A stretch of DNA of 64,000 nt from Natronomonas marina (GTDB lineage Archaea; Halobacteriota; Halobacteria; Halobacteriales; Haloarculaceae). Positions within the stretch are counted from its first letter, which is position 1. Each line of letters starts with the position of its first letter. The translations under genes were made by a program, and so were the position numbers. The stretch is taken from positions 2,480,001-2,544,000 of the forward strand of contig NZ_CP101154.1 of assembly GCF_024298905.1 (NCBI RefSeq), written 5' to 3'. This document shows, piece by piece, positions 22,964 to 43,146 of this stretch. The notes below the pieces were generated by a model. That model had not been told where the DNA came from and ran no database searches. It saw nothing but the letters and a program-made list of their open reading frames with translations.

Positions 22964-23830
22964 ATGAGCGTTGACCACGACGAGGGCCACGGGGGCCACG
23001 ACCACCACCTGCCCGCGGTCGAGGACTGGCCGAAGGGGTTCGGTGAGGCCTCCTGGTGGCCGTTCATCACGGCACTGGGCGGCAGCGGCTTCTACATCGG
23101 TGCGGCGCTGTTCGTGCTCGGACAGAACGACATTCTCAGCCCCGCCGTCGGCGCAGGCGTGTTCATCCTCAGCTCCGTCGCCTTCCTCGTCGGGCTGTAC
23201 GGCTGGCTCTACCACGCCTTCATCGTGAACTTCTGGGAGGGCGAGGCCGAGGATTACGGCTTCCCGCTGAAACTGACGATGCTGCTGTTTCTCGCCACCG
23301 AGGTGGCCACCTTCGGCGCCGGCTTCATGTACTACTTCTTCGTCCGCGGCTCCAGCGTCTGGAGCGAGGAGGCGCTGCCCGAACTCGTCGTCTCCGGGGA
23401 CATCCTCAGTTCGCTCGTCGTCGTGAACACGCTCATCCTGATCGCGAGTTCGTTCACGATGCACTACGCCCACCACGCGCTGCTGAAGGACGACCGAACC
23501 CGGTTCGTCCGCCTGCTCGGCGTGACGCTGCTTCTCGGGTTCGTCTTCCTGCTCGGGCAGGTCTACGAGTACTACGAGTTCATCGTCCACGAGGGCTTCA
23601 CCATCACCGAGGGCGCCTACGGGTCGGCCTTCTACGGGCTGACGGGCCTCCACGGCCTCCACGTCAGCCTCGGGGCCGTCCTGCTCGCCATCGTCTTCGT
23701 CCGGGCGCTGTACGGCCAGTACTCCGCCGAGAAACACACCTCCGTCAGCACCGTCTCGATGTACTGGCACTTCGTCGACGTCGTCTGGGTCTTCCTCGTC
23801 GTCGTGCTGTACGCCGGCGCCATCGTCTGA
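22964..23830 (+). CDS. coxC: Cytochrome c oxidase subunit III
   Basis: 288 aa from the ATG at 22964; an in-frame start at 22925 is unlikely because it would include the promoter. A His-rich N-terminus (DEGHGGHDHHLP) precedes seven helices. Family features include LFLATEVATFGAGFMYYFFVR, TGLHGLHVSLGAVLL and the last-helix WHFVDVVWVFLVVVLY. Subunit III stabilises the oxidase core. It follows a subunit II gene but lacks a neighbouring subunit I. A conserved intergenic element begins at the first base after its stop. Confidence 0.93.
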   Translation: MSVDHDEGHGGHDHHLPAVEDWPKGFGEASWWPFITALGGSGFYIGAALFVLGQNDILSPAVGAGVFILSSVAFLVGLYGWLYHAFIVNFWEGEAEDYGFPLKLTMLLFLATEVATFGAGFMYYFFVRGSSVWSEEALPELVVSGDILSSLVVVNTLILIASSFTMHYAHHALLKDDRTRFVRLLGVTLLLGFVFLLGQVYEYYEFIVHEGFTITEGAYGSAFYGLTGLHGLHVSLGAVLLAIVFVRALYGQYSAEKHTSVSTVSMYWHFVDVVWVFLVVVLYAGAIV

Positions 23831-23956
23831 ACACCCACTTTTTACACGACCCCCTCGCTGCGCGAGGGGGTTGCGTGGCGGCATGGCCGCCACGACCATT
23901 CGGCGGCGGCCTGTGGCCGCCGCCCGCGGCAAAAACGTGGGGAAAATATGCGCGCG
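23831..23956 (+). repeat. Stop-abutting intergenic element, copy A (three perfect hairpins)
   Basis: The first 25 bases (23831-23855) and the last 29 (23928-23956) are identical to the ends of a second element at 41558-41620 on the opposite strand. Between them are three perfect hairpins, each with a 3-nt loop: 23850-23870 (9-bp stem), 23875-23893 (8-bp stem) and 23902-23924 (10-bp stem). It begins at the first base after the coxC stop codon and contains a T5 tract at 23839-23843, so part of it may act as a terminator. The copy B middle has only one 7-bp hairpin. Confidence 0.8.
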
Positions 23957-24047
23957 TGCTCCTGTGGCGCCCGCAGTTGTGGCACGATAGTCGAACGGCA
24001 CGGCCGATTCCGCAACCCTCACCAACGACAGGTGCCTACCATCGGTG

Positions 24048-25415
24048 ATGAGCCGCCGCCGTCGTCTCGCGCTCGCCACCCTAGGGGTCCTGATCGCCGT
24101 CGCCACGCCCGCGGCCGCCCACGGGGCCGGCCTCGCGGGGGCGTCGACCCGCTCGCTCGACGTCCCGACCTGGCTCTTCCTGACGACCGGCGGCGGCGTC
24201 GTCGGCGCCTCCTTCCTGCTCGCGTCGTTCGTCACCGACCGATCGTTCGTCCGCCGGGTTCACGGCTGGCGCCGCGGCAGCAGCCCCCCCCTCGAAGGGC
24301 TCGTCCGCTCGGGGCTGCGCCTGTTCGGCGTCGCCGGCCTGCTGTTCGTGCTGGCGGTCGGGTTCTTCGGCCCGCCGACGCCGACCCGCAACGCCGCCGT
24401 GCTGGTCGTGTGGGTCGGCTGGTGGTCCGGCTACACGATGAGCACCTACCTCGTCGGCAACACCTGGCCCGCCCTGAACCCCTGGCGCACGGTGGCGTCG
24501 GCGCTGCCGTCGCTGGGGTGGCGCTACCCCGAGCGACTGGACGCCTGGCCCAGCGTCGCCGGCCTCCTCGGACTCGTCTGGCTGGAGGTGGTCAGCCCCG
24601 TCGCCGACCGCCCCCGGTTCCTGGCCGGCGTCGTCGCCGTCTACACCGCCGTGACGCTGGCCGGCGCCGTCGCCTTCGGCGCCGACACCTGGTTTCGGCG
24701 GGTCGACCCAATCGCCCGCGTCTTCCGGTACTTCGGCCGGCTCGCGCCGCTGTACTACGACGGGGGCGTCCGCGTCCGGCTGCCCGGCGTCGGTCTCGAC
24801 GCGCCGAAACTCGTCACCTCGCGGGCCGAGGTGGCCTTCGTCGTCGCGGTCCTGTGGGTGACGACCTACGACGGCCTCGTGGCGACGCCGCTGTGGCGCG
24901 GGGCCGCCGTCGCCGCCGTCGAGGCCGGCGTCCCGCCGGCGCTCCTGTACCCCGCGGCCCTGGTCGTCGGCTACCTCCTCGTCCTCGGCGTCTACGCGCT
25001 CGCGGTCCGCTACAGCAAGCGGACCGCCCGGACCTACCTCCCGGCGGACGCGCTCGCTCGCCGGTTCGCGCCGCCACTCCTGGCCATCGCCGCCGGCTAC
25101 CACCTCGCGCACTTCCTGGGGTACTTCCTCGAGCTGTCGCCGGCGCTCCTCGGCGCGATTGTGGCGCCGCTCGGCCCGCCGGCCCCCGTCGCGCTCGTGT
25201 TGCCCGGCTGGTTCGGCGGCGTCGAACTCGGCGCGGTCGTCCTCGGGCACCTGCTGGCCATCTGGGTCGCCCACGCCGCCGCCTACGAGGTGTTCCCCGG
25301 CAAGCTACAGGCCGTCCGCAGCCAGTACGGGATCACCGCTGCGATGGTCTGCTACACGATGGCCAGCCTCTGGATCGTCTCACAACCGTACTCGGTTCCT
25401 CCCTACGTCTCATGA
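24048..25415 (+). CDS. Large multipass membrane protein, function unknown
   Basis: 455 aa from the ATG at 24048 (a GTG directly before it is also possible). A signal-like N-terminus (LALATLGVLIAVATPAAAHG) precedes about ten helices. Notable conserved-looking elements are LVGNTWPALNPWRTV, AAGYHLAHFLGYFLE and VLGHLLAIWVAHAAAYEVF, with several histidines in helices. No family function is known to me. It follows the oxidase subunit III gene and overlaps the C2H2 zinc-finger gene by 4 bp (ATGA). Confidence 0.75.
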   Translation: MSRRRRLALATLGVLIAVATPAAAHGAGLAGASTRSLDVPTWLFLTTGGGVVGASFLLASFVTDRSFVRRVHGWRRGSSPPLEGLVRSGLRLFGVAGLLFVLAVGFFGPPTPTRNAAVLVVWVGWWSGYTMSTYLVGNTWPALNPWRTVASALPSLGWRYPERLDAWPSVAGLLGLVWLEVVSPVADRPRFLAGVVAVYTAVTLAGAVAFGADTWFRRVDPIARVFRYFGRLAPLYYDGGVRVRLPGVGLDAPKLVTSRAEVAFVVAVLWVTTYDGLVATPLWRGAAVAAVEAGVPPALLYPAALVVGYLLVLGVYALAVRYSKRTARTYLPADALARRFAPPLLAIAAGYHLAHFLGYFLELSPALLGAIVAPLGPPAPVALVLPGWFGGVELGAVVLGHLLAIWVAHAAAYEVFPGKLQAVRSQYGITAAMVCYTMASLWIVSQPYSVPPYVS

Positions 25416-33904: not shown

Positions 33905-35944
33905 CTAGAACCACCCCCCGATGACGGCGAAGACAGCCAGCAGCGCCAGCACGCTGAGCGTGATGAGCGCCGCGTAGTTGGTGACGATACCCGTCTGGAG
34001 CCGACGCAGGCGGTCGCCCGAGAAGAGGCTGACGCTGGAAACGGCATTGACCGCGCCGTCGATGACGCCCTGATCGAAGGTGTCGGCCGCGCTCGCTACG
34101 CGGACCGTCAGCCCCTCCGCGAGCCACACCTGGTACTCGTCCTGGTAGTAGTTGTGCATGAGAACCGTCCGAAGACCGCCGAGTTTCTCCGTGTGCCGTT
34201 CGGGGTCGGCGCCGCGGTACAGCGAGAACGCGGCGCCGGCACCGGCAAGCGCCAGCCCGAGGCTCAGCCCCGCGCCGACGAGCATCGTTCCGACCTCGCC
34301 GCCCGCGATTGTGCCCGTGGTGTAGCCGGCGTAGTCGTGGGTCAACTCGCCGTAGTGGTGGGCGCTCGTCAGCAGTTCCTCGCTGGCGGGGTTGTCGAGA
34401 TACGCATGCAGGAAGTCCACCTCCGCGCCGGTGAGCTTCTTGATGGGGACGGGGTTGAGGAAGCCGGCGACGACCGCAAGCACTCCCAGCACCGACAGCG
34501 GGAACTTGACGTTCCAGCGGACGCCGTGGGGGTCCTCGGCAGTGTCCGTCCGTGGCTCGCCGTGGAACGTCAGCATCACCATCCGGATGGTGTAGAAGCC
34601 GGTCACGAACACGGCCGCGAGTCCCATCAGGTAGCCGCCGAGCAGCAGCGGACTCTCGCCGAGACCGTGGACCAGCGTCTCGAACAGCACCTCGTCCTTC
34701 GACCAGAAGCCGGCGAACGGGAAGATGCCCGCGAGCGCGAGCGACCCCGCGAGGAACGTGAGGTAGGTGACCCGCATCTCGTCTTTCAGCCCGCCCATCA
34801 GCCACATGTCCTCCTCGTGGTGCATGGCGATGATGACTGACCCGGCGCCGAGGAACAGTAGCGCCTTGAATACCGCGTGGGTCGTCAGATGGAAGAACGC
34901 GGCGACGTAGCCGCCCGCGCCCAGCGCGAGCATCATGTAGCCGTACTGGCTGATGGTCGAGTAGGCGAGCACCTGCTTGATCTCGTTTTTGACGACGCCC
35001 ATCGACGCCGCGAACAGCGCCGTGAAGCCGCCCGTGAACGCGATAATGGCCAGCACCGTCGGCAGCAGCGCGTAGAAGCCGTACATCCGGGCGACCAGGA
35101 AGACGCCGGCGGCAACCATCGTCGCGGCGTGGATGAGCGCCGACACGGGCGTCGGACCCTCCATGGCGTCCGGCAGCCACGTATGGAAGGGGAACTGTGC
35201 GGATTTGCCGAGCACGCCGCCGAGGACGAGCAGGCCGAGCACCGCGAACCACGTCTCGGGCGCGAAGCCGAAGGTGTTGACCGACGCCTCGCCGGCCAGA
35301 ACCGCCTCCGCGAGCGCAGGGAAGCCGTCCTCGCCGGCGAAGCCCGCGGTGCCGAACGTCGTCAGGACGCCCACGACGCCGATCAGGAAGAAGTAGTCAC
35401 CGAAGCGGGTGACCAGGAACGCCTTCTTCGCCGCGGAGGGCGGGGCGTCCTCCCGGAACCAGTGGCCGATGAGCAGGTACGAACAGAGGCCCACCAGCTC
35501 GAAGAAGAAGAAGGCCATCAGCAGGTTCGCCGAGAAGACGAACGCGAGCATGCTCGCCGAGAACAGTCCGAGACCGGCGTAGTAGCGCGGCAGCCCCGGT
35601 TCACCCTCGTCGTTCATGTAGCCGAGCGAGAAGACGTGCACGAGGAAGGCGATGAGCGAGACGATGACCAACATTGCGGCCGACAGCGGGTCGACGAGGA
35701 GGCCGAACGTCAGGTCGAACGTCTCGGTCGCGTCGACGAAGGTGTACAGCGTCTCGTCGTAGCCCTCGCCCGTGAGGACGACGTTGGCGAGCATCGCCGC
35801 CGAGAGGCCGAGCGACCCGGCCGTCGCCAGGATGCCCGCGAGCGCGCCCTTCTTCGGGAGCCACTTCCCGGCCAGGAGTGCGACCAGGAACGAGACGAAC
35901 GGCAGCAGCGCGATAGCCGGCGCGTATGCGTATATTCCTGCCAT
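33905..35944 (-). CDS. nuoL: NADH-quinone oxidoreductase subunit L
   Basis: 679 aa from the ATG at 35944; a GTG at 35953 would add three residues. About 16 helices with GLCSYLLIGHWF, QFPFHTWLPDAMEGPTPVSA and LAYSTISQYGYMMLALG. The long C-terminal extension includes an amphipathic part with the LGGLRTVLMHNYYQDEYQVW region, as in the NuoL lateral helix. It translocates protons in the membrane arm. It is directly adjacent to nuoM and nuoK. Confidence 0.95.
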   Translation of the reverse strand: MAGIYAYAPAIALLPFVSFLVALLAGKWLPKKGALAGILATAGSLGLSAAMLANVVLTGEGYDETLYTFVDATETFDLTFGLLVDPLSAAMLVIVSLIAFLVHVFSLGYMNDEGEPGLPRYYAGLGLFSASMLAFVFSANLLMAFFFFELVGLCSYLLIGHWFREDAPPSAAKKAFLVTRFGDYFFLIGVVGVLTTFGTAGFAGEDGFPALAEAVLAGEASVNTFGFAPETWFAVLGLLVLGGVLGKSAQFPFHTWLPDAMEGPTPVSALIHAATMVAAGVFLVARMYGFYALLPTVLAIIAFTGGFTALFAASMGVVKNEIKQVLAYSTISQYGYMMLALGAGGYVAAFFHLTTHAVFKALLFLGAGSVIIAMHHEEDMWLMGGLKDEMRVTYLTFLAGSLALAGIFPFAGFWSKDEVLFETLVHGLGESPLLLGGYLMGLAAVFVTGFYTIRMVMLTFHGEPRTDTAEDPHGVRWNVKFPLSVLGVLAVVAGFLNPVPIKKLTGAEVDFLHAYLDNPASEELLTSAHHYGELTHDYAGYTTGTIAGGEVGTMLVGAGLSLGLALAGAGAAFSLYRGADPERHTEKLGGLRTVLMHNYYQDEYQVWLAEGLTVRVASAADTFDQGVIDGAVNAVSSVSLFSGDRLRRLQTGIVTNYAALITLSVLALLAVFAVIGGWF

Positions 35945-35946
35945 GA

Positions 35947-36261
35947 TTACCACCTCAGTGTCGTCGCTTCGGTCACGTCCACGTCGTCGAAGTTACGGTA
36001 CAGCACCAGGATGATACCGATGCCGATGGCGACCTCCGCCGCGGCCAGCGCCATCGTGAACAGCGTGAACACCTGGCCGGTGATGTTCCCCCAGTAGAAC
36101 GCGAAGGCGACGAGGTTGATGTTCGCGGCGTTCAGCATCAACTCGACGCTCATCAGGAACATCAGGGCGTTCTCCCGGGTCAGGATGCCGAAGACACCGA
36201 TACAGAACACCGCCGCCGAGAGGACGAGATAGTACTCGGCGGGGACGGTTCCGAGAACCAT
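35947..36261 (-). CDS. nuoK: NADH-quinone oxidoreductase subunit K
   Basis: 104 aa with three helices. The conserved membrane glutamates are in MSVELMLNAANINLVAF and ALAAAEVAIGIGIILVLYR, as in NuoK. It is a small membrane-arm subunit. The stop lies 2 bp before the nuoL start and its ATG overlaps the end of the preceding nuoJ-type gene by 1 bp. Confidence 0.95.
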   Translation of the reverse strand: MVLGTVPAEYYLVLSAAVFCIGVFGILTRENALMFLMSVELMLNAANINLVAFAFYWGNITGQVFTLFTMALAAAEVAIGIGIILVLYRNFDDVDVTEATTLRW

Positions 36262-36551
36262 CAGCCATCCCCCTCCTCGTCCTTCTTTGCGAGCATGACC
36301 GCGCCGTCAAGTGCGGCGTCGAGCACGACGGCGATGGTGATGAAGGCCACGAGGAAGCCCTCGCTGGCGATGTCACCGGCGTCGAGGTTGAACATCGCGT
36401 AGCCGATAGAGCGTGTCACCGAGCCGTCGGCGAACCCCTCGGCAGTGCCGAACCCCGAGGTCAGGAAGACGGCCGCGAGGAAACCGAAAAGTCCCACAGC
36501 GAGGATCCCCGTGAGCTTGCTCCCCCCGTAGAGGCGCGGACGGGTCGTCAC
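36261..36551 (-). CDS. nuoJ: NADH-quinone oxidoreductase subunit J, second half (NuoJ2)
   Basis: 96 aa with GTG start at 36551, overlapping the end of the first NuoJ gene as GTGA. Two helices: KLTGILAVGLFGFLAAVFL and GFLVAFITIAVVLDAALDGAVML. Haloarchaea split NuoJ into two short proteins; this one covers the C-terminal half. The frame is open farther upstream only as antisense or overlap of the previous gene. Confidence 0.88.
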   Translation of the reverse strand: MTTRPRLYGGSKLTGILAVGLFGFLAAVFLTSGFGTAEGFADGSVTRSIGYAMFNLDAGDIASEGFLVAFITIAVVLDAALDGAVMLAKKDEEGDG

Positions 36552-36826
36552 GGCGCCACCTCCGTCTCCGGCCCGCTCTCGCGGCGGACCAGCATGACCG
36601 CGAAGGTGATGAGGATCAGTACCCCGCCGACGTACACGAGTACCTGCATCGCGGCCAGAAACTCGGCGCTCAACATCACGTAGTGGACCGCGACGGACAG
36701 CAGCGCCACGCCCAAGAGTAGCGCCGAGTGCCACACGTCACGGGCCAAGACGACGCCCAGGCTCGCCCCGACGGTCACGAGGGCGAACAGCAGGAACGCC
36801 AGTAACTGGTACGGTACTACAGCCAT
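36548..36826 (-). CDS. nuoJ: NADH-quinone oxidoreductase subunit J, first half (NuoJ1)
   Basis: 92 aa with three helices, including HSALLLGVALLSVAVHYVML and the NuoJ signature AAMQVLVYVGGVLILITFAVML. It is the first gene of the second nuo block. In other haloarchaea nuoI immediately precedes it; here nuoI is at 41621-42082, 4.8 kb away, so this block needs its own promoter or read-through. Confidence 0.93.
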   Translation of the reverse strand: MAVVPYQLLAFLLFALVTVGASLGVVLARDVWHSALLLGVALLSVAVHYVMLSAEFLAAMQVLVYVGGVLILITFAVMLVRRESGPETEVAP

Positions 36827-36910
36827 TGTTTACCTCTGCATCCGGGTTCCCTTTGAAGATTTCCTTTGCGTTCCACGCCGGCGACGCCAGCAGGCCGGGC
36901 CAGCCCCGCT

Positions 36911-37318
36911 TCAGGACTCCAGGCCCGTCTCCTGCAGCGTGACCCAGACGACTCCCTCGGGTGCGGCCTCGTCGGCCCGGAACAACGCCGTACTGACCCG
37001 GCCCGTCTCGCCCGCCGCCGTCGACTGCCGCTCCTCGTACCGCACCACGGCGTGGTCGTCCAGCAGCGCGACCGTCTCTATCTCCCGGACGTCGATGTCG
37101 AAGTCCTCGCCGGCGGTGCGGCCGTGCGACTCCGCGATCCCGTCGACGAGCGCCTCGTGGTCGACCCGCTCGCCGGCCGTCGTGACCATCTCGAACTCGG
37201 GGGCGAGCGCCCGCTCGAGGCGGGAGAGATCGCTCCGCGGGGCCGCCCCGGCGAACCACTCGACGAAGAACTCGTGGAGGCCCGTTATCTCGGCCCGACA
37301 CGCCGTGGGAGTCAGCAT
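36911..37318 (-). CDS. DUF4440/SnoaL-like (NTF2-fold) protein
   Basis: 135 aa. The cone-shaped NTF2-like fold is suggested by FVEWFAGAAPRSDLSRLERALAPEFEMVTT, LVDGIAESHG and the strand-rich half VREIETVALLDDHAVVRYEERQ, ending with WVTLQE. DUF4440 proteins are small enzymes or ligand-binding proteins of varied role. It sits between nuoJ1 and the IS region, 84 bp upstream of nuoJ1 on the same strand, inside the segment that splits the nuo genes. Confidence 0.78.
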   Translation of the reverse strand: MLTPTACRAEITGLHEFFVEWFAGAAPRSDLSRLERALAPEFEMVTTAGERVDHEALVDGIAESHGRTAGEDFDIDVREIETVALLDDHAVVRYEERQSTAAGETGRVSTALFRADEAAPEGVVWVTLQETGLES

Positions 37319-37358
37319 ACTCCCCCTACGACGCCGACCAGTAAATCGTTGGGTGTGG

Positions 37359-37574
37359 CTACTCGAGCAGTCCCAGGTCCTCGGCGACGAAGTCCGCGAT
37401 TTGGTCCATCACCGCGGGGTCGACCTCCGCGACCGCCTCGCCGTCGTGGAGTTGCTCGTTGTGCCGCGCGACGGCGTCCTCGACATCCGAAAACGGGACC
37501 TTCGTGCGCGTGTCACACTCGCTGCAGACGACCGGGATGTCCGGCAGGCCCTCGTCGTCGTCGGTGTCAGTCAT
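37359..37574 (-). CDS. Small CxxC protein, function unknown
   Basis: 71 aa from the ATG at 37574. An acidic N-terminus (TDTDDDEGLPDIPVV) is followed by CSECDTRTKVPFSDVEDAV, a single CxxC knuckle, and a helical acidic C-terminus (VMDQIADFVAEDLGLLE). One CxxC alone would need a partner or dimer to bind zinc. A truncated paralogue covering the first ~27 codons and the promoter lies at 40732-40842. It is 40 bp upstream of the DUF4440 gene. Confidence 0.72.
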   Translation of the reverse strand: MTDTDDDEGLPDIPVVCSECDTRTKVPFSDVEDAVARHNEQLHDGEAVAEVDPAVMDQIADFVAEDLGLLE

Positions 37575-37639
37575 GCCTCGACCTGTGGCGGCCGTTGTAA
37601 AAACCGGTGCGGTCGACGTATCCGGCCAAACGGTCTCGT

Positions 37640-37686
37640 GATCCTCAAGTAACGGTAGGAGGGGTTGACCTCCTCCCACGGCTGTA
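37640..37686 (-). mobile_element. Putative right end of an IS200/IS605-type remnant (split by IS630)
   Basis: Contains the palindromes GGAGG-GGTTGA-CCTCC (37657-37672 region) and the left arm CCCACGGC of a longer hairpin whose right arm GCCGTGGG lies at 38844-38851, beyond the IS630 element. Removing the IS630 element and one TA restores CCCACGGC-TGTAAC-GCCGTGGG. Palindromes of this kind are typical of haloarchaeal tnpB-element ends. No tnpA or tnpB gene remains here. The exact outer boundary is uncertain. Confidence 0.4.
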
Positions 37687-38840
37687 GTGATTAGCGGATC
37701 TTATTGAGGAATCCACTGAGGTGATTGTCAATCCACGATGCAGCGAAGCTCAGTTGCTCGGTCAGTTCTTCGAACAGATCGTCAAGGAGTGTTCGGTACT
37801 CGTCTTCATCTTCGACAATCAGCGGTGATGACTCCCACTTGAGACTTTTCCAGACTGGCTCGATTGGATTGAGATGCGGCGATCCAACCGGAAGGAATAC
37901 GAGATCAATTCCTAGTTCGTGGGCACGCTTGCGAGTGTACTTGCAAATGTGAGATGAGAAGTTATCTAAAACGAGCAGAATCCGGGTACGCGGATTCTGC
38001 TCGCGGATCGTCTCGAAGCACTCACAGATCTGTTCTTTCTCCTGGTTCGGCGGAAACGACAGTACACTCTCACCGTTGAGTGCATAGAACCCGGCCGCTG
38101 GTGTGTCGATTTTCACCAGCGGCCGGGTGATGTGTGGGTCATCAACTGTGTACATCCGCTGAGAATTGTCCCACGGCTGTGGATGTGACAGGTCGAAAAA
38201 CCCGATGACTGTGCCACCATCTGTTCGAATATCCTCGTCACGGTCCCAGTCTTCGTCGTCTTGATCTTTCTCTCGTTTGTTGTGAGGCTGATCGTCGGCA
38301 TCCTCGTCGAACGCGTACTCGACGCGTTCGTCGAGAATCCCTTCGGCGTCGTCTGGTCGATCAGGACGTTTCGTCCGTGGAATAGCGTACGAGAGGCCGA
38401 GGTTGTCCAGAAACGTCGGTAGATAGTGTGGATGATACTCGATATTGAATTCCTCGTTGAGGAGATGCTGAATCTCCTGTTTTTTCCAGGGCTGGCCCTC
38501 ACGGAGTCGCTCGATCAGTCGCTGCTGTTCGGCCTCGCCGAGCTTCGGGGGCCTGCCGCCCCCGAAGTTCGGCGTGAGTTTGCCCAGTCCTCCTTCATTC
38601 CAGCGTTCGACCCAGTTGTCAGCTGTCCCCTCTGATCGCCCAACGTCATCAGCGGCTTCAGCGAGCGTCGCTCCCTTGTATAGCCGTTTGATGAACACGA
38701 GCCGTTCGTGTTGCTTCACGTCGTCAGTTTCCGTGAGCAGTCTATCCAGGTCTTCCTCGCTCAGGTGGCGTACAACTTCTTTCTCACGGCCAGTCATTAC
38801 ATCGAAAAGACGGTTTTCCTCAATAACTTCCCCGAATGAC
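37687..38840 (-). mobile_element. IS630-family insertion sequence (1154 bp)
   Basis: Terminal inverted repeats of 25 bp at 37687-37711 and 38816-38840 match at 20 of 25 positions (inner part TTATTGAGGAA is identical). The element is flanked by TA on both sides (37685-37686 and 38841-38842), the target duplication of IS630/Tc1-type elements. It encodes one intact transposase. The insertion lies in the loop of a palindrome of an older element. Confidence 0.85.
37691..38797 (-). CDS. IS630-family transposase
   Basis: 368 aa, uninterrupted. The N-terminal HTH part contains YKGATLAEAADDVGRSEGTADNW (helix-turn-helix), followed by a second winged-helix-like region with GGGRPPKLGEAEQQRL. The DDE catalytic residues appear in GFFDLSHP, LVLDNFSSH and PHLNPIEPVWKSLK. 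Its stop codon lies inside the terminal inverted repeat. It has lower GC than flanking core genes. The element looks recently active because the ORF and both ends are intact. Confidence 0.93.
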   Translation of the reverse strand: MTGREKEVVRHLSEEDLDRLLTETDDVKQHERLVFIKRLYKGATLAEAADDVGRSEGTADNWVERWNEGGLGKLTPNFGGGRPPKLGEAEQQRLIERLREGQPWKKQEIQHLLNEEFNIEYHPHYLPTFLDNLGLSYAIPRTKRPDRPDDAEGILDERVEYAFDEDADDQPHNKREKDQDDEDWDRDEDIRTDGGTVIGFFDLSHPQPWDNSQRMYTVDDPHITRPLVKIDTPAAGFYALNGESVLSFPPNQEKEQICECFETIREQNPRTRILLVLDNFSSHICKYTRKRAHELGIDLVFLPVGSPHLNPIEPVWKSLKWESSPLIVEDEDEYRTLLDDLFEELTEQLSFAASWIDNHLSGFLNKIR

Positions 38841-38842
38841 TA

Positions 38843-39345
38843 ACGCCGTGGGATTCCCACGTTGGGAGTTTCAGGTTTGCAGTCTCGTCGGCATGACGGG
38901 ACTGCTGGCGGGGCCAAGCCGCCGTTACTCCTATCCCGGCATGGGATTCAGAGGTACCGTGTGTCGGAATCCACAGCCAGCGGCCCCGAAGGGGATTCCT
39001 TCAGATTCAGACGTAGTGTGGCCCGAATCCCGATATTATCCGTTTATTCGGGCGGCTCGACCGCCTCGGTACGGCCTTTTTACGCCCTACTCAACTATAA
39101 AACTCCGGGGCTGCGCACCCTCGTGGATAGATTCCCAGTTGTCGGCTTCATCCCTACCCGTGAACGGGTGGGCTTTCGCTTCGCTACCGCTGTAAAACCA
39201 AGGTCTATGATTGGTACACCCGTCGTCGGCAGTCAGTATGAAGACGGTCCGAACCCAGTTGACGGCAAGACCAGAGCTCCCCCAAGCCACAGACGGAGCT
39301 CGCACTGCGGGTCTGCCTTCTTACAGAAACATCGGTAAGTCTTGG
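38843..39345 (-). mobile_element. Non-coding remnant, likely derived from an IS200/IS605-type element
   Basis: About 500 bp with no convincing gene. It begins with the other half of the palindrome split by the IS630 element (GCCGTGGG, then GTGGGATTCCCAC) and contains further short hairpins, for example CCCGTGAACGGG near 39161-39172. Open frames on both strands are short and have unusual composition. The arrangement resembles a non-autonomous palindrome-associated element or the 3' RNA region of a tnpB element whose gene is lost. Confirmation needs comparison with other genomes. Confidence 0.35.
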
Positions 39346-39435
39346 GTGTGGCGCAGTTGCTCTGAAATCAATGAAACCTCTCGGAAAGAACGATGATAGT
39401 TTATGTTACTCCGCATCTATTAATTAGGAATTAAA

Positions 39436-39450
39436 TTTAAGTATATAAAA
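39436..39450 (+). promoter_or_regulatory. AT-rich promoter (TATA box) of the Tat-secreted protein gene
   Basis: TTTAAGTATATAAAA sits 17-30 nt before the ATG at 39466, in a strongly AT-rich stretch unlike the rest of the window. The spacing predicts a leaderless mRNA. Confidence 0.6.
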
Positions 39451-39465
39451 TAAGATTATACAGAT

Positions 39466-40095
39466 ATGGCAGATGAAGATATTCCGAAGGAGACCGACAG
39501 AAATGACAAGTCTGGGTCTGTGTCCATCGTTAGTCAAGTGACCCGTCGAAAAAGTATAAAAGCACTCGGCAACCTTGGGTTAGGAACTGCATTTCTGACC
39601 GGCAATACAGTCGCGGATTCTAATTCGGGCACCACAGGTGGAAACGAGAAACAGATGAAACAAAAGGACGTTCCGTCTGTCGAAGAGTCCAATGTGGTCT
39701 ATATCCCACCTGAAGAGGTCGAATGGCCGGACGACAACATGGTCAGTTCTGACGGTCCGGTTTCCTCATCTACGCGTGTCTCGAAAGTGAATTCGAGGTG
39801 CCTTGGTGGTCAAATAGCCCGTATTGGTGTTGAAGTATGTCCGAACGATGGTGATTTTGAGGTTTCCGTTTCGCTATTAGGAGTCTTAGTGGGGAACTAT
39901 TCGTTCGATGGAGATGTATATAAACACACCACTAGCTGGCAAGGCGCAGTTCCGGGGGCCCCCGGTATATTTCAGAGAGTTGATCTGACATTCTACTTCG
40001 ATAGCGTCACCGATGTGTCTGTACAAGCCGACTTCTGCTACTACTCCAATCTCCAGTGGTACTGCACGGAATACCCAAAAACCAAACTCAGTTAG
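39466..40095 (+). CDS. Tat-exported protein with four cysteines, function unknown
   Basis: 209 aa. The twin-arginine signal is VTRRKSIKALGNLGLG (Arg27-Arg28), with cleavage likely around residue 50. The mature part has a linker to ~105, then a compact region with Cys112, 125, 191 and 200 that could form two disulfides, with strand-like segments (FEVSVSLLGVLVGNYSF; VDLTFYFDSVTDVSVQADF). It is clearly AT-richer than the core genes and lies between a mobile-element remnant and a structured non-coding stretch. Halocins are Tat-exported and Cys-rich, but I see no homology; a halocin-like role is only a hypothesis. Confidence 0.75.
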   Translation: MADEDIPKETDRNDKSGSVSIVSQVTRRKSIKALGNLGLGTAFLTGNTVADSNSGTTGGNEKQMKQKDVPSVEESNVVYIPPEEVEWPDDNMVSSDGPVSSSTRVSKVNSRCLGGQIARIGVEVCPNDGDFEVSVSLLGVLVGNYSFDGDVYKHTTSWQGAVPGAPGIFQRVDLTFYFDSVTDVSVQADFCYYSNLQWYCTEYPKTKLS

Positions 40096-40112
40096 GAAGT
40101 AATGTGACGAAA

Positions 40113-40535
40113 ATGCCAACAAAACATCCGCTTAACTATACGATGGTAAATCGGCAAGAGCTCATTTACATAGCCGCCGGTGGAGTACTCGGATGGGTAG
40201 CAATCTATTCTTATAACGCGGTATATGGCTCGGGGAGCTCGGTCTACGTATCGATCAGCCTTATCGGGAGCGCTGTCGCCGGGTTCCTCGCCGCAAGAGG
40301 CGAGAGAAACCCCCAACGGGTCGGCGTCGGCGCAGCACTCGTTGGGACGTTCCCAATCCTGTATTTGATGTACGATAGCGCGATTCAGATGGCGGGTGGA
40401 CTCATTACGGACTCGGCTCCCTGGGTGTTCCTCGTCTTCGGTGTCCTGATGGTAGCGATTCTTACGTTCCAAGCGGTTGGAGGACTCATCTGCGGTAAGG
40501 CTGGCGGGTGGCTCGAAAAACGAATCGCATCCTGA
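40113..40535 (+). CDS. Small membrane protein (DUF5518-like), paired with the Tat-exported protein
   Basis: 140 aa from the ATG at 40113; a GTG at 40104 and an ATG at 40143 are alternatives. Four hydrophobic segments: LIYIAAGGVLGWVAIYSY, VYVSISLIGSAVAGFLA, VGVGAALVGTFPILYLMY and WVFLVFGVLMVAILTFQAVGGL. The AGFLAARGERNPQRVGVGAALVG pattern recalls haloarchaeal DUF5518-type proteins. It starts 17 bp after the preceding gene's stop, so the two are probably one transcript. It could protect against or anchor the upstream protein; this is inference. Confidence 0.65.
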   Translation: MPTKHPLNYTMVNRQELIYIAAGGVLGWVAIYSYNAVYGSGSSVYVSISLIGSAVAGFLAARGERNPQRVGVGAALVGTFPILYLMYDSAIQMAGGLITDSAPWVFLVFGVLMVAILTFQAVGGLICGKAGGWLEKRIAS

Positions 40536-40710
40536 TCGATACCGACTGGTCGGAGATACCGATAATGAACGGCGTTCGCGGGTGGTTGAATACTCTTCCA
40601 CTCGGCAACCACCAAGCTGAAACGACTGATACAGCGGGAAGAACCCGCAAGCGGACGAAGAGGGTCTAGCGGTTTGCTCGAAAGAACGCCGTAGGCTGTT
40701 TCGACATGAC
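40536..40710. other. Structured non-coding stretch
   Basis: No gene is visible. Inverted repeats are GGTGGTTG...CAACCACC (around 40582-40615) and GCGGG-AAGAA-CCCGC (around 40637-40651). The composition is intermediate between the AT-rich pair and the GC-rich core. It may be the distal end of the acquired segment or the remains of a mobile element. Confidence 0.4.
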
Positions 40711-40733
40711 GAACGATGTCTGCGACATCGTTC
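40711..40733. repeat. Perfect hairpin at the edge of the accessory segment
   Basis: GAACGATGTC-TGC-GACATCGTTC: a 10-bp perfect stem with a 3-nt loop. It overlaps the stop of the truncated CxxC gene copy and marks the junction between acquired DNA and core sequence. Confidence 0.75.
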
Positions 40734-40842
40734 AAATCACACCGGACGACCGGGAGGAGCGCGGGACCTTCGTGCGCGTGTCACACTCGGTGCAGACGAC
40801 CGGGATGTCCGGCAGGCCCTCGGCGTCGTCGGCGCTGGTCAT
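40732..40842 (-). pseudogene. Truncated paralogue of the small CxxC protein
   Basis: 36-codon frame from the ATG at 40842. Its first ~27 codons match the protein at 37359-37574 almost residue for residue (EGLPDIPVVC-x-ECDTRTKVP) and then continue with an unrelated RSSRSSGVI and a stop. About 50 bp of the upstream region is also similar. The C-terminal half is missing where the acquired DNA begins (about 40762). It is most likely a tandem paralogue cut by insertion. Confidence 0.75.
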
Positions 40843-40899
40843 GGCCCCGAGTGGGGTCGCCTCCGTGAAAACCGCCGCGGTTCGTGGCGTCCGGACCGG

Positions 40900-41352
40900 C
40901 TACACCTCGACGACGTTGCCGCAGTCGGGACAGGTCAGCGTCACGTCTTCGCCGTCGACGTCGGTGACGTGGTAGTCCGCACCGCACGCCCGGCAGGGCA
41001 ACTTCGTGCGCGTCTCGCCCATCCCCTGCGGGGCGCCCATCGCCAGCGCACGGACGCGGTCGTCGCCGTCGTTTCTGCCCTCCTGGTACTCGCCGGGGGC
41101 GAACCGGACGACCTCGTCGGGGCCGACCTCGTGGGTGTCCTCCGGCGTCTCGAAGGTCGCCGTCCCCTCCATCACGTAGAAGACCTCCTCCTGATCCATG
41201 TGGGTGTGAATCCCGCCGGAGAAGGAGTCGCCGGGTTCGAGTTCGTAGTAGTTCAGCGCCATGTCCGACAGCCCAAGCGGGCCCGTGGCGTGTTTCTGTA
41301 CGTCCGCGACGCGCGGGTCGTTCTCCAGGTCGTCGATTGCTACCTTCTCCAT
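40900..41352 (-). CDS. Cupin protein with C-terminal zinc ribbon
   Basis: 150 aa from the ATG at 41352; the longer open frame upstream is non-coding. The cupin domain shows GIHTHMDQEEVFYVMEGTATF (motif 1: G-x-H-x-H-x-E) and VRFAPGEYQEGRNDGDDRVRALAMG (motif 2). The C-terminal 40 residues form a zinc ribbon with CRACGADYHV and LTCPDCGNVVEV. Substrate unknown. It is the gene next to nuoI, with the repeat element in between. Confidence 0.87.
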   Translation of the reverse strand: MEKVAIDDLENDPRVADVQKHATGPLGLSDMALNYYELEPGDSFSGGIHTHMDQEEVFYVMEGTATFETPEDTHEVGPDEVVRFAPGEYQEGRNDGDDRVRALAMGAPQGMGETRTKLPCRACGADYHVTDVDGEDVTLTCPDCGNVVEV

Positions 41353-41399
41353 GGCGAACGGTGGATGTGCGGCACACGGAGTAAATTTTGGTGTCGGAG

Positions 41400-41557
41400 G
41401 TGGGACACTGCGACAGGAACGACGAACCACCGGAGCATCCGCCGAGGGAGCGAAGCGACCGAGGCGGTTCGCGGCGGCGAGGCGACGGAGGTCGCCGAGC
41501 CGCCGTAGCGCGCGACGACTAACGCGCTCGAACGAAGTGAGAGCGCGGCTGGAGGAG
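41400..41557. repeat. GC-rich palindromic intergenic stretch
   Basis: Contains stacked short inverted repeats such as GGCGAC-GGAG-GTCGCC (near 41485-41500) and GCGCTC...GAGCGC (near 41524-41546). No open frame here has protein-like composition. It lies between the cupin promoter and repeat copy B. Similar GCGAAGCG-type hairpins occur near 63010-63030. Confidence 0.5.
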
Positions 41558-41620
41558 CGCGCGCATATTTTCCCCACGTTTTTGCCGACCCCCGAAGGGG
41601 GTCGTGTAAAAAGTGGGTGT
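41558..41620 (-). repeat. Stop-abutting intergenic element, copy B (one hairpin)
   Basis: On the minus strand it begins at the first base after the nuoI TAG. The outer blocks 41596-41620 (25 bases) and 41558-41586 (29 bases) are identical to those of copy A at 23831-23956. The middle is a single perfect hairpin GACCCCC-TTC-GGGGGTC (41587-41603). The T5 tract of the first block lies 8 bases after the stop codon and could end transcription. Confidence 0.8.
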
Positions 41621-42082
41621 CTATTGGTAGTCCACTTCGCCCTCGCCCTCGCCGATCCAGGCGCCGCGGTCGGGTTCGCGCGAGGCGAGCGGGTCGATGT
41701 CCTTGTACCAGGGGACGTTCTTCAGTTCCTCCATGTTGTAGGCCAGATCGTCCTTGGTGTCGCCGGTGAACTCGAAGTTCTGGGTCAGGAGGATGGCGTC
41801 GACGGGGCAGACCTCCTCGCAGAGCCGGCAGTAGATGCACTGCCCGATGTGGAGGTTGTACTGCTCGCCGTTGCGCTGTTCGTCGGTGACGATCTGGATG
41901 GTGTCGTTCGGGCAGACGTTCTCGCACTGCCGACACCAGATGCACCGTTCCTGTGAGAACTTGTGGACGCCGCGGAACCGCGGGGAGACGTCGGGCGTCT
42001 CCTCGGGGTACTGGACGGTGAACTTCTCGCCGTCCAGAGCGTGTTTCATCGTCGTTGCCATCGATTTGAGCATTCCAATCAT
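41621..42082 (-). CDS. nuoI: NADH-quinone oxidoreductase subunit I
   Basis: 153 aa from the ATG at 42082. Two [4Fe-4S] ferredoxin motifs: CIWCRQCENVCP and CIYCRLCEEVCP. It carries clusters N6a/N6b between the peripheral and membrane arms. It is the last gene of the first nuo block; its expected next gene nuoJ is displaced to 36826. An intergenic element starts directly after its stop. Confidence 0.95.
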   Translation of the reverse strand: MIGMLKSMATTMKHALDGEKFTVQYPEETPDVSPRFRGVHKFSQERCIWCRQCENVCPNDTIQIVTDEQRNGEQYNLHIGQCIYCRLCEEVCPVDAILLTQNFEFTGDTKDDLAYNMEELKNVPWYKDIDPLASREPDRGAWIGEGEGEVDYQ

Positions 42083-42084
42083 GG

Positions 42085-43146
42085 TCAGGCGATCACCCCC
42101 ACGATGACGGCCGTGAGGATCAGGTTCGCGAGCGACAGCACCAGCATCCCCTTCCAGCCGATCTGGATGAGCTGGTCGATACGGAGCCGCGGCAGCGCCG
42201 AGCGGGCCCACTGGGTGAACAGGAAGACCCCCCAGATCTTGATGATGAACCAGAGGATTCCGGGCAGGACCGGCCCGGCGGGGCCGCCGAGGAACAGCGT
42301 GGCGATGATGGCGCCGCCGAGGAAGATGTGGATGAACTCGCCGAGGTAGATCAACACGAAGTAGACGCTGGAGTACTCGGTCTGGTAGCCCGCGACGATC
42401 TCGGTCGGCGCCTCGGGGATGTCGAAGGGATTGCGGCCGACCTCCATCAGGTTCGCGATCATGAACAGCGCGAACGCGAAGGGGTTGACGAAGGCGTACC
42501 ACGACGGAATCGTGAGGCCGGCGACGCTGACGAGCGCCTCGCTCTGGGCGGCCACGATTTCGCTCATCTGCAGCGACCCGGAGAACAGCACGACGGACGC
42601 CGCGATGAGCACCAGCGGAATCTCGTAGGCGAGGTTCTGGGCGACCGCTCGCAGGCCGCCGAGCATCGAGAACTTGTTGTTCGAGCCGTAGCCGGCCATC
42701 ACCAGCGCCAGCGAGGCGATGGAGGCGACGGCGAAGACGTAGACCAGACCGATTTCGGGGTCGGCGAGGTGGATGCCGTTGCCCATCGGGATGACGGCGA
42801 AGCCCAGCAGCGCCGACCACGCGAGCAGGAGCGGCGCGATGTCCCAGGCGGGGCGGTCGACGCCCTCCGGGACGATGAGTTCCTTCGACAGCAGGCGGAC
42901 CGCGTCGGCGACGATGATGAGCAATCCGGCGGGGCCGACCCGGTTGACCGCGTAGCGGTCGGTGAAGGCGGCGGTTATCTTCCGCTTGGCCCACGGCCCG
43001 GCGACGGCAGTCATCGCAAGCATGAGCGTGCCGACCAGCGCCGCGCCGATGAAGGAGGCGACGAAGTCCTCGGCAGGCGACAGTTCCGAACCGAACCCGA
43101 GCAGGCGGCCGATGGTGTCCGGCAGCGTCGTCTGTGCCGGCAGCAT
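42085..43146 (-). CDS. nuoH: NADH-quinone oxidoreductase subunit H
   Basis: 353 aa with eight to nine helices. NuoH signatures visible: AVNRVGPAGLLIIVADAVRLLSKE in pieces, LAYEIPLVL, PFDIPEAPTEIVAGYQTEYS and LRIDQLIQIGWK. It forms part of the quinone-binding chamber. It is 2 bp upstream of nuoI and starts 1 base after the nuoCD stop. Confidence 0.95.
   Translation of the reverse strand: MLPAQTTLPDTIGRLLGFGSELSPAEDFVASFIGAALVGTLMLAMTAVAGPWAKRKITAAFTDRYAVNRVGPAGLLIIVADAVRLLSKELIVPEGVDRPAWDIAPLLLAWSALLGFAVIPMGNGIHLADPEIGLVYVFAVASIASLALVMAGYGSNNKFSMLGGLRAVAQNLAYEIPLVLIAASVVLFSGSLQMSEIVAAQSEALVSVAGLTIPSWYAFVNPFAFALFMIANLMEVGRNPFDIPEAPTEIVAGYQTEYSSVYFVLIYLGEFIHIFLGGAIIATLFLGGPAGPVLPGILWFIIKIWGVFLFTQWARSALPRLRIDQLIQIGWKGMLVLSLANLILTAVIVGVIA

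Follow-up and report, generated by a model that had tools for sequence, protein, structure and literature searches.

We describe here a family of folded non-coding elements, about 150 to 240 bases long, that stand a few bases after haloarchaeal genes. They are best read, at what we judge an even chance, as replaceable gene-boundary modules that combine a two-way T5 terminator with a strand-specific hairpin array.

Two copies in a Natronomonas marina window

Two copies, A and B, lie in the window (the whole stretch of 64,000 nucleotides of the Natronomonas marina genome that was analysed). As the earlier note had stated, copy A (23831-23956, plus strand) directly follows the TGA at 23828-23830, and copy B starts on the minus strand at 41620, directly after the TAG at 41623-41621. 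The 25-base first block ACACCCACTTTTTACACGACCCCCT and a 29-base block GGCAAAAACGTGGGGAAAATATGCGCGCG are the same in both copies, and perfect hairpins with 3-nt loops number three in copy A (23849-23871, 23874-23894 and 23902-23924) and one in copy B (41586-41604). The 29-base block had been called the last block; its identity stands, but it is not the end of the element, as the conserved structure of copy B reaches 41434, and the segments first described cover just the left end of something larger. A 22-mer from the first block and an 18-mer from the last, each allowed ≤3 mismatches, matched the window at these 2 places only and had no match in 100 shuffles. The features are as follows.

23831..23956, plus strand: conserved left part of copy A (P1 with a three-hairpin HP1, then AAAATATGCGCGCG), from the block and shuffle comparison
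23839..23843, plus strand: T5 tract of copy A, lying 8 nt past the stop of coxC and proposed to terminate transcription from upstream
23849..23924, plus strand: HP1 of copy A, the three perfect hairpins given above, from a hairpin scan
23931..23935, plus strand: A5 tract closing P1 of copy A, which is T5 on the minus strand and terminator-like in the other direction
23957..24085, plus strand: eroded right half of copy A, in which CTCC (23959) and AGTC (23989) can still be recognised
41434..41620, minus strand: full-length element, copy B (covariance-model match, 119.3 bits)
41572..41620, minus strand: P1 of copy B, with CCCAC-T5 (T5 at 41612-41608), the HP1 hairpin (41604-41586) and A5-CGTGGGG
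41560..41571, minus strand: joint AAAATATGCGCG of copy B, invariant across 14 aligned own-genome copies
41517..41556, minus strand: P2 internal loop (TCC..AGTC) of copy B, with inner hairpin HP2 (41546-41524)
41473..41504, minus strand: P3 arm of copy B (GGCGGC-TC-GGCGAC-CTCC-GTCGCC-TC-GCCGCC; tandem G.A on the plus strand)
41434..41472, minus strand: GCGAA joint, P4 arm (41467-41439) and terminal ATGCT of copy B

The right half of copy A gave a decayed covariance-model match (23943-24085, 18.4 bits, E 0.015). Perfect 7-bp hairpins with 3-nt loops number 23 in the window, compared with 9, 14 and 11 in three resamplings. GA/GA loops number 15, and the 9 of these on the plus strand compare with 7, 0, 4 and 3 in four one-strand resamplings, so that GA/GA loops alone are not clearly enriched in the window; GA/GA loops with a C(GNA)G tip have only two instances there, both within copy B. 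A generic feature of the genome was rejected as an explanation.

The gene before copy A encodes a COX3 protein, which fits the name coxC, and the gene before copy B encodes a 4Fe-4S protein and adjoins an NADHdh gene; the name nuoI fits the latter, partly from gene order. The nuo cluster is split in this region (window 33905-43146): the NADHdh and 4Fe-4S genes precede copy B, the chain 4L and chain 5 genes are at 36.3-33.9 kb, and a DDE_3 transposase gene (37694-38794) lies between the two parts.

Extent of the element family

The host genome comprises 2 contigs and 3.99 Mb; the P1 pattern with ≤3 mismatches occurred there at 20 places, compared with 3 for a reversed control. A covariance model built from 14 full-length right halves of the host genome gave 37 matches there at E≤1, 30 of them below E 1e-6, and found a match at E≤0.01 in 29 of 60 genomes, including the host. 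Within the genus, 15 of 20 genomes (again including the host) carry a match, with 1 to 52 matches each; copy number in the listed congeners ranges from 0 to 52. The 30 matches below E 1e-6 in a single genome, with more in congeners, go beyond one recent duplication.

The exact P1 pattern, which misses divergent subtypes and so understates spread, was present in 11 of the 20 genus genomes (0 control matches) and in 4 of 146 sampled genomes of the order, including the host. When the best 13 loci from other genera were judged by eye, 7 were short relatives (L066, L067, L069, L071, L072, L074, L075), L073, L076, L077 and L078 looked unrelated, and L068 and L070 were ambiguous. The short relatives, in other haloarchaeal families, run from the gene end through a T tract, a hairpin, an A tract and one arm to GAACCGC..GCGGATGC. 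The pattern search named as carriers Natronomonas species, Halobacteriales MAGs, Halorarius litoreus and halobius, and a single Haloarculaceae record; Natronomonas gomsonensis and Natronomonas sp. CBA1123 are among the carriers. A loose pattern matched 86 named records, of which the 18 bacterial ones were taken for chance. The pattern GAACCGC..GCGGAT matches 20 of 20 genus genomes and was excluded from the counts because its matches in G008 look like coding sequence.

Rfam covariance models gave nothing at E≤1 for 20 own loci, and an ncRNA search of 11 loci, most of them lacking a sense frame, returned tRNAs alone, in 2 loci; a known ncRNA was rejected on these grounds. Insertion next to tRNAs was also rejected, as ARAGORN found tRNAs in 2 of 37 loci and none abutting P1. 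We found no published description of the element in the open-licence literature. Four own copies (L012, L033, L038 and L045) look interrupted or cut by one repeat, TTATTGAGGAA.. beside CATAGTCATTCGGGG or CTTAGTGATTAGCGG, which probably represents the ends of an insertion sequence entering hairpins, and L281, L328 and L343 carry, within or beside P1, a small palindromic insert close to CTCAGAAATCGGAGATTTCTGATGGGC.

Structure and covariation

After the stop codon and a spacer of 0-6 nt, the element consists of CCACTTTTT, one or more hairpins and AAAAAC, then AAAATAT, three more arms with conserved joints, and GCGGATGCT. On the gene strand, the left half reads CCAC-T5-(G/A)CACG-HP1-GGC-A5-C(G/T)T followed by AAAATAT, and the right half comprises P2 (an internal loop TCC..AGTC around HP2), CTAC, P3, G(C/G)GAA, P4 and ATGCT. 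Conservation of T5 is partly built in because P1 was found by matching CTTTTTGCAC.

The stems covary strongly. Pair counts were taken from 62 distinct rows (the model was given 55 loci, and 68 matches were aligned), and 95.2% of pair cells were paired, compared with 76.1% in shuffles, in an alignment that was fitted to the model and is therefore biased toward the structure. Double-change cells numbered 208, compared with 52.4 in shuffles, and were seen in 18 of 24 pairs, while sliding the structures lowered paired cells to 27-46%. For the P1 base after the T tract and its partner, there were 135 G/C, 6 C/G, 1 C/C and 28 unpaired A/C; among the exact-pattern matches listed, the same pair was 12 times C/G and 4 times C/C. 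By eye, we also distinguished variants that we call type 2 (..CTTCGATGAAAAATAGC), type 3 (..GAAAAAGACAC) and type 4 (without P2), names that are this analysis's own. The picture of conserved ends with stem-preserving, exchanged hairpins, proposed from the two window copies, is supported by these data.

Position relative to genes

Of the 118 non-redundant copies (30 own, 80 that are the best listed of six congeners, and 8 from other genomes), 97 are stop-type, 15 face a divergent gene, 4 lack a recognisable P1, 1 comes after SRP RNA and 1 is degenerate. With upstream reading frames called from composition, CTTTTT starts 3-9 nt after the stop codon at 92 of the 97 stop-type loci (a first positional count, 94/105, was made before the divergent class was recognised); at the remaining five, four of them in G018, the stop lies 18-23 nt before CTTTTT. 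In these four G018 copies (L127, L128, L135 and L137), an additional CCCACTTTT precedes the T5 of the element by about 20 nt, which looks as though an element had landed next to an older T tract. In the divergent class (n=15), the best-judged start codon is 41-55 nt away, once 72, with several copies having an alternative, nearer start. One copy has an SRP RNA 3' end 12 nt before its CTTTTT. Among 27 loci found by P1 alone, 8 of which were already in the first set, a stop was present at 2-9 nt in 19 and no sense frame in 8; four of the latter, judged partly by eye, are upstream of divergent genes.

The blocks are hence not at random positions relative to genes, given the stop spacing of 3-9 nt at 92 of 97 loci. 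A start at gene ends, as noted for the two window copies, is supported family-wide, but a strict need for a stop codon is not, in view of the 15 divergent-start copies and the one after SRP RNA. Downstream genes, called crudely, were convergent in 60 cases, tandem in 57 and ambiguous in 1. Close tail-to-tail element pairs on opposite strands were seen in G002, G010, G011, G001 and G000, as expected for convergent genes each having a copy.

In the host genome, 16 of 20 scanned upstream proteins have a Pfam family (23 had a reference; L031, L032 and L050 were left out), including ribosomal S19e, AICARFT/IMPCHase, succinyl-CoA ligase, a TFIIS-type zinc ribbon, glutamine synthetase and a DNA polymerase II large-subunit domain. 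Copies A and B both follow respiratory genes, but a wider tie to such genes is unsupported, and specificity for them was rejected in view of this mixed housekeeping set. The best copies of G003 (L058) and G019 (L055) each lie, by eye, about 50 nt upstream of a nuoJ-like start, from which a 60-aa piece gave no Pfam match; G003 also has a frame ending like the host nuoI, followed by plain CCCCCTTTTT in place of the element.

Which strand folds

Hairpin tips on the opposite strand are mostly C(GNA)G (GAA 158, GGA 67, GCA 55, GTA 24), with a further 15 C(GTCA)G, and tandem GA/GA loops number 421 on that strand compared with 3 on the gene strand. With RNA energies, folding favours the opposite strand in 112 of 114 elements, and in 113/118 when the core is taken by itself; the same preference in controls was 84/118 for upstream coding sequence, 46/118 for downstream sequence and 69/118 for resampled cores. 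DNA energies narrow the advantage (12 of 14 copies, compared with 13 of 14 with RNA energies). On the gene strand of 111 copies, TNC:GNA loop ratios were 34:20 in HP1, 35:0 in HP2, 52:1 in P3 and 51:4 in P4, ratios that omit arms with other loops (57, 45, 43 and 47, respectively; about half) and arms without a location (0, 28, 15 and 8). The strand bias sits in HP2, P3 and P4, HP1 showing it only weakly.

In a folded RNA, one would expect GNRA loops. According to the available excerpt of PMC4686876, by contrast, GNA or GNNA loops make DNA mini-hairpins unusually stable, and this difference favours single-stranded DNA. An RNA 3' end structure, one of the possibilities raised in the earlier note, is weakened because the arms past the first hairpin show the chemistry of opposite-strand folding in their loops and mismatches, although the G.T count points the other way: gene-strand pairs include 47 G.T compared with 14 A.C (29 compared with 14 when one P2 pair is removed), an excess more in keeping with gene-strand RNA than with folding of the opposite strand.

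A structured RNA, either the upstream gene's 3' UTR or an opposite-strand antisense RNA (P4-P3-P2) ending at the minus-strand T5 of P1, is in our judgement unlikely. The strong covariation, the invariant joints and the G.T excess are in its favour, and an opposite-strand RNA would end in UUUUCCCCACGUUUUU, which fits its having its own terminator. However, the loops of the opposite strand are GNA triloops and GTCA tetraloops, GNRA being absent from the 25 commonest, the 20 loci compared with Rfam were without a match, and gene-strand transcripts should stop at T5 ahead of the arms. Moreover, in the 83 of 118 copies amenable to anchoring, the 80 nt that follow GGATGCT contain no conserved A+T box, and there is only a mild A+T rise about 8-18 nt beyond this motif. 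An element-borne promoter beyond GGATGCT was rejected, as none was seen in these copies.

Turnover at shared gene ends

Among the copies compared, the host shares four gene positions with G002 and four with G018, against a chance estimate of 0.1-0.2. Orthologous copies are mostly no more alike than non-orthologous ones, and sequence hence does not separate descent from reinsertion. In a trio of close genomes (G001, G010 and G016; upstream flanks 92.6-96.3% identical), 10 ortholog pairs at 8 sites have a model match in both members, and 9 pairs were aligned. Arms are exactly or nearly inverted in L262/L264 and L267/L274, one arm is exchanged in L262/L264 and L265/L259 (L265 also has a deletion), L255/L269, L262/L266 and L270/L268 are rebuilt more widely, and L276/L277 is identical along its whole length. 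At five further sites, picked from 13 unmatched trio loci where a partner had not been seen, the other two genomes have another subtype in 9 of 10 cases and no element in 1; in the copy-free G017, two of the five gene ends are not closely followed by a T tract. These comparisons gave no clean empty site from which an insertion boundary or target duplication could be read. Five own copies have about 65 bp in common beyond the 3' end, which indicates that DNA copying has occurred; in L023, L026 and L027, the shared stretch starts 2-12 nt before CTTTTT. The mobile-like character first proposed for the window copies is supported by these results.

A passive MITE/SMR-like repeat, spread by a putative transposase, tolerated only at gene boundaries and without host function, agrees with the range of copy number among congeners (0-52) and with the common 3' extension. 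Nonetheless, we consider it improbable: shared gene positions across species exceed the chance estimate (even though ortholog copies are mostly no more alike), stems are kept across diverged copies, and the stop spacing appears tighter than tolerance alone would predict.

A non-autonomous single-stranded DNA transposable element of the IS200/IS605 type (PATE-like), mobilised by TnpA, would share with the present family its palindromes, absence of coding capacity, variable copy number and strand-specific hairpins; PATEs have been described in haloarchaea (PMC3119063), and a Y1_Tnp match was found in 13 of the 20 genus genomes, including one each in the high-copy G002 and G018. However, G011, G013 and G015 (88, 82 and 72% complete) have 30, 17 and 16 copies and no Y1_Tnp match, G008 and G017 have 5 and 3 Y1_Tnp matches and no copies, and the sole match in the host genome has an internal stop. 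Placement at gene boundaries in a fixed orientation is also absent from the PATE descriptions in the available excerpt of PMC3119063, and we hold this origin to be quite unlikely. Mobilisation by a Y1 transposase was rejected because, across the 20 genus genomes, the presence of Y1_Tnp does not track copies.

A probable two-way terminator with a strand-specific hairpin array

According to the excerpts available, a T stretch is the intergenic termination motif in Haloferax, with T5C called strong (PMC7237163), and archaeal U-tracts act with aCPSF1, a hairpin not being strictly needed (PMC8716108). T5 has 10 occurrences on each strand of the window, and it lies 2 and 8 nt after the stop at two other gene ends of the 44 called there. 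The terminator-like character suggested earlier is supported, and by analogy with these excerpts (PMC7237163, PMC8716108), the T5 of copy A (23839..23843) would end the upstream transcript. As judged from sequence, the left half (P1/HP1: T5, hairpin, A5) sets a T5 on each strand right at a gene end or shortly upstream of a divergent gene, and for this reason P1/HP1 is most likely a bidirectional transcription terminator or insulator. A bidirectional terminator would fit the gene-end and divergent classes alike.

The right half (P2-P3-P4), whose role is suggested by its strand bias, is kept as a folded, strand-specific array of hairpins on the strand opposite the upstream gene. To judge from its GNA/GNNA loops and its tandem G.A mismatches, this strand would fold in the form of single-stranded DNA, probably during copying or recombination of the element. 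Hairpins invert or are exchanged, and whole subtypes replace one another, in copies that keep their place at the same gene ends. This pattern suggests that copies often recombine with each other, or that elements reinsert at a favoured boundary site, through a putative enzyme. A more specific and doubtful proposal is a chromosomal attC-like single-stranded DNA recombination module, in which a putative recombinase would recognise the GNA-capped arms of the opposite strand and repeatedly swap terminator-bearing subtypes.

If the attC-like reading were true, transcription terminators would behave as exchangeable cassettes at the same gene ends. Archaeal terminators in the literature available to us are mostly simple T tracts. 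A dispersed family in which a two-way T5 signal is joined to a strongly covarying, strand-specific array of hairpins, and which is exchanged in place between related genomes, would tie the 3' ends of archaeal transcripts to the mobility of single-stranded DNA. The family also offers a natural system in which hairpin inversion and exchange can be traced at single-base resolution from one close genome to another, and it gives cause to re-examine haloarchaeal intergenic palindromes.

Comparison with known systems

Integron attC sites lie just after a stop codon, fold from the bottom strand, keep structure rather than sequence, and carry the core sites RYYYAAC/GTTRRRY. The present element likewise mostly follows stop codons, is predicted to fold better on the opposite strand and keeps its structure; no attC core sites were seen by eye in the conserved blocks, and its scanned upstream genes, unlike those of attC, are housekeeping genes.

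Bacterial REP/BIME elements are intergenic palindromes, RAYT is TnpA-REP, and in REP/RAYT systems a tetranucleotide stands at the hairpin foot. Some of these palindromes lie within 15 nt of a stop codon, with proposed roles at transcript ends (excerpt of PMC12306157), and the tetranucleotides GTAG/CGTC are named in PMC3733652. The present element resembles them as a set of palindromes at gene 3' ends. In contrast to REP/RAYT, it is not tracked by a Y1 (RAYT) protein, since the incomplete G011, G013 and G015 are without Y1_Tnp, and it differs from REP/BIME in that it is about 150-240 bp long with four arms, has T5/A5 at its ends, shows a strand bias in its arms and is exchanged as whole subtypes.

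Like the PATEs and SMRs of Haloquadratum walsbyi, the family consists of short, transposase-free haloarchaeal repeats, and, like PATEs, which have near-terminal palindromes, it has palindromes near its ends, no terminal inverted repeats and no room for a transposase (PMC3119063, in part). By eye, no terminal inverted repeats were seen, the ends CCACTTTTT and GCGGATGCT not being inverted repeats of each other. The same excerpt likens PATEs to the ends of IS605 and does not link them with gene ends (PMC3119063), and copies of the present element show no correlation with TnpA. With archaeal U-tract, aCPSF1-dependent terminators, as covered in the excerpts of PMC8716108 and PMC7237163, the element shares a tract of four or more T close behind the gene end; what sets it apart from such plain terminators is the paired A5 of P1 and the P2-P4 arms.
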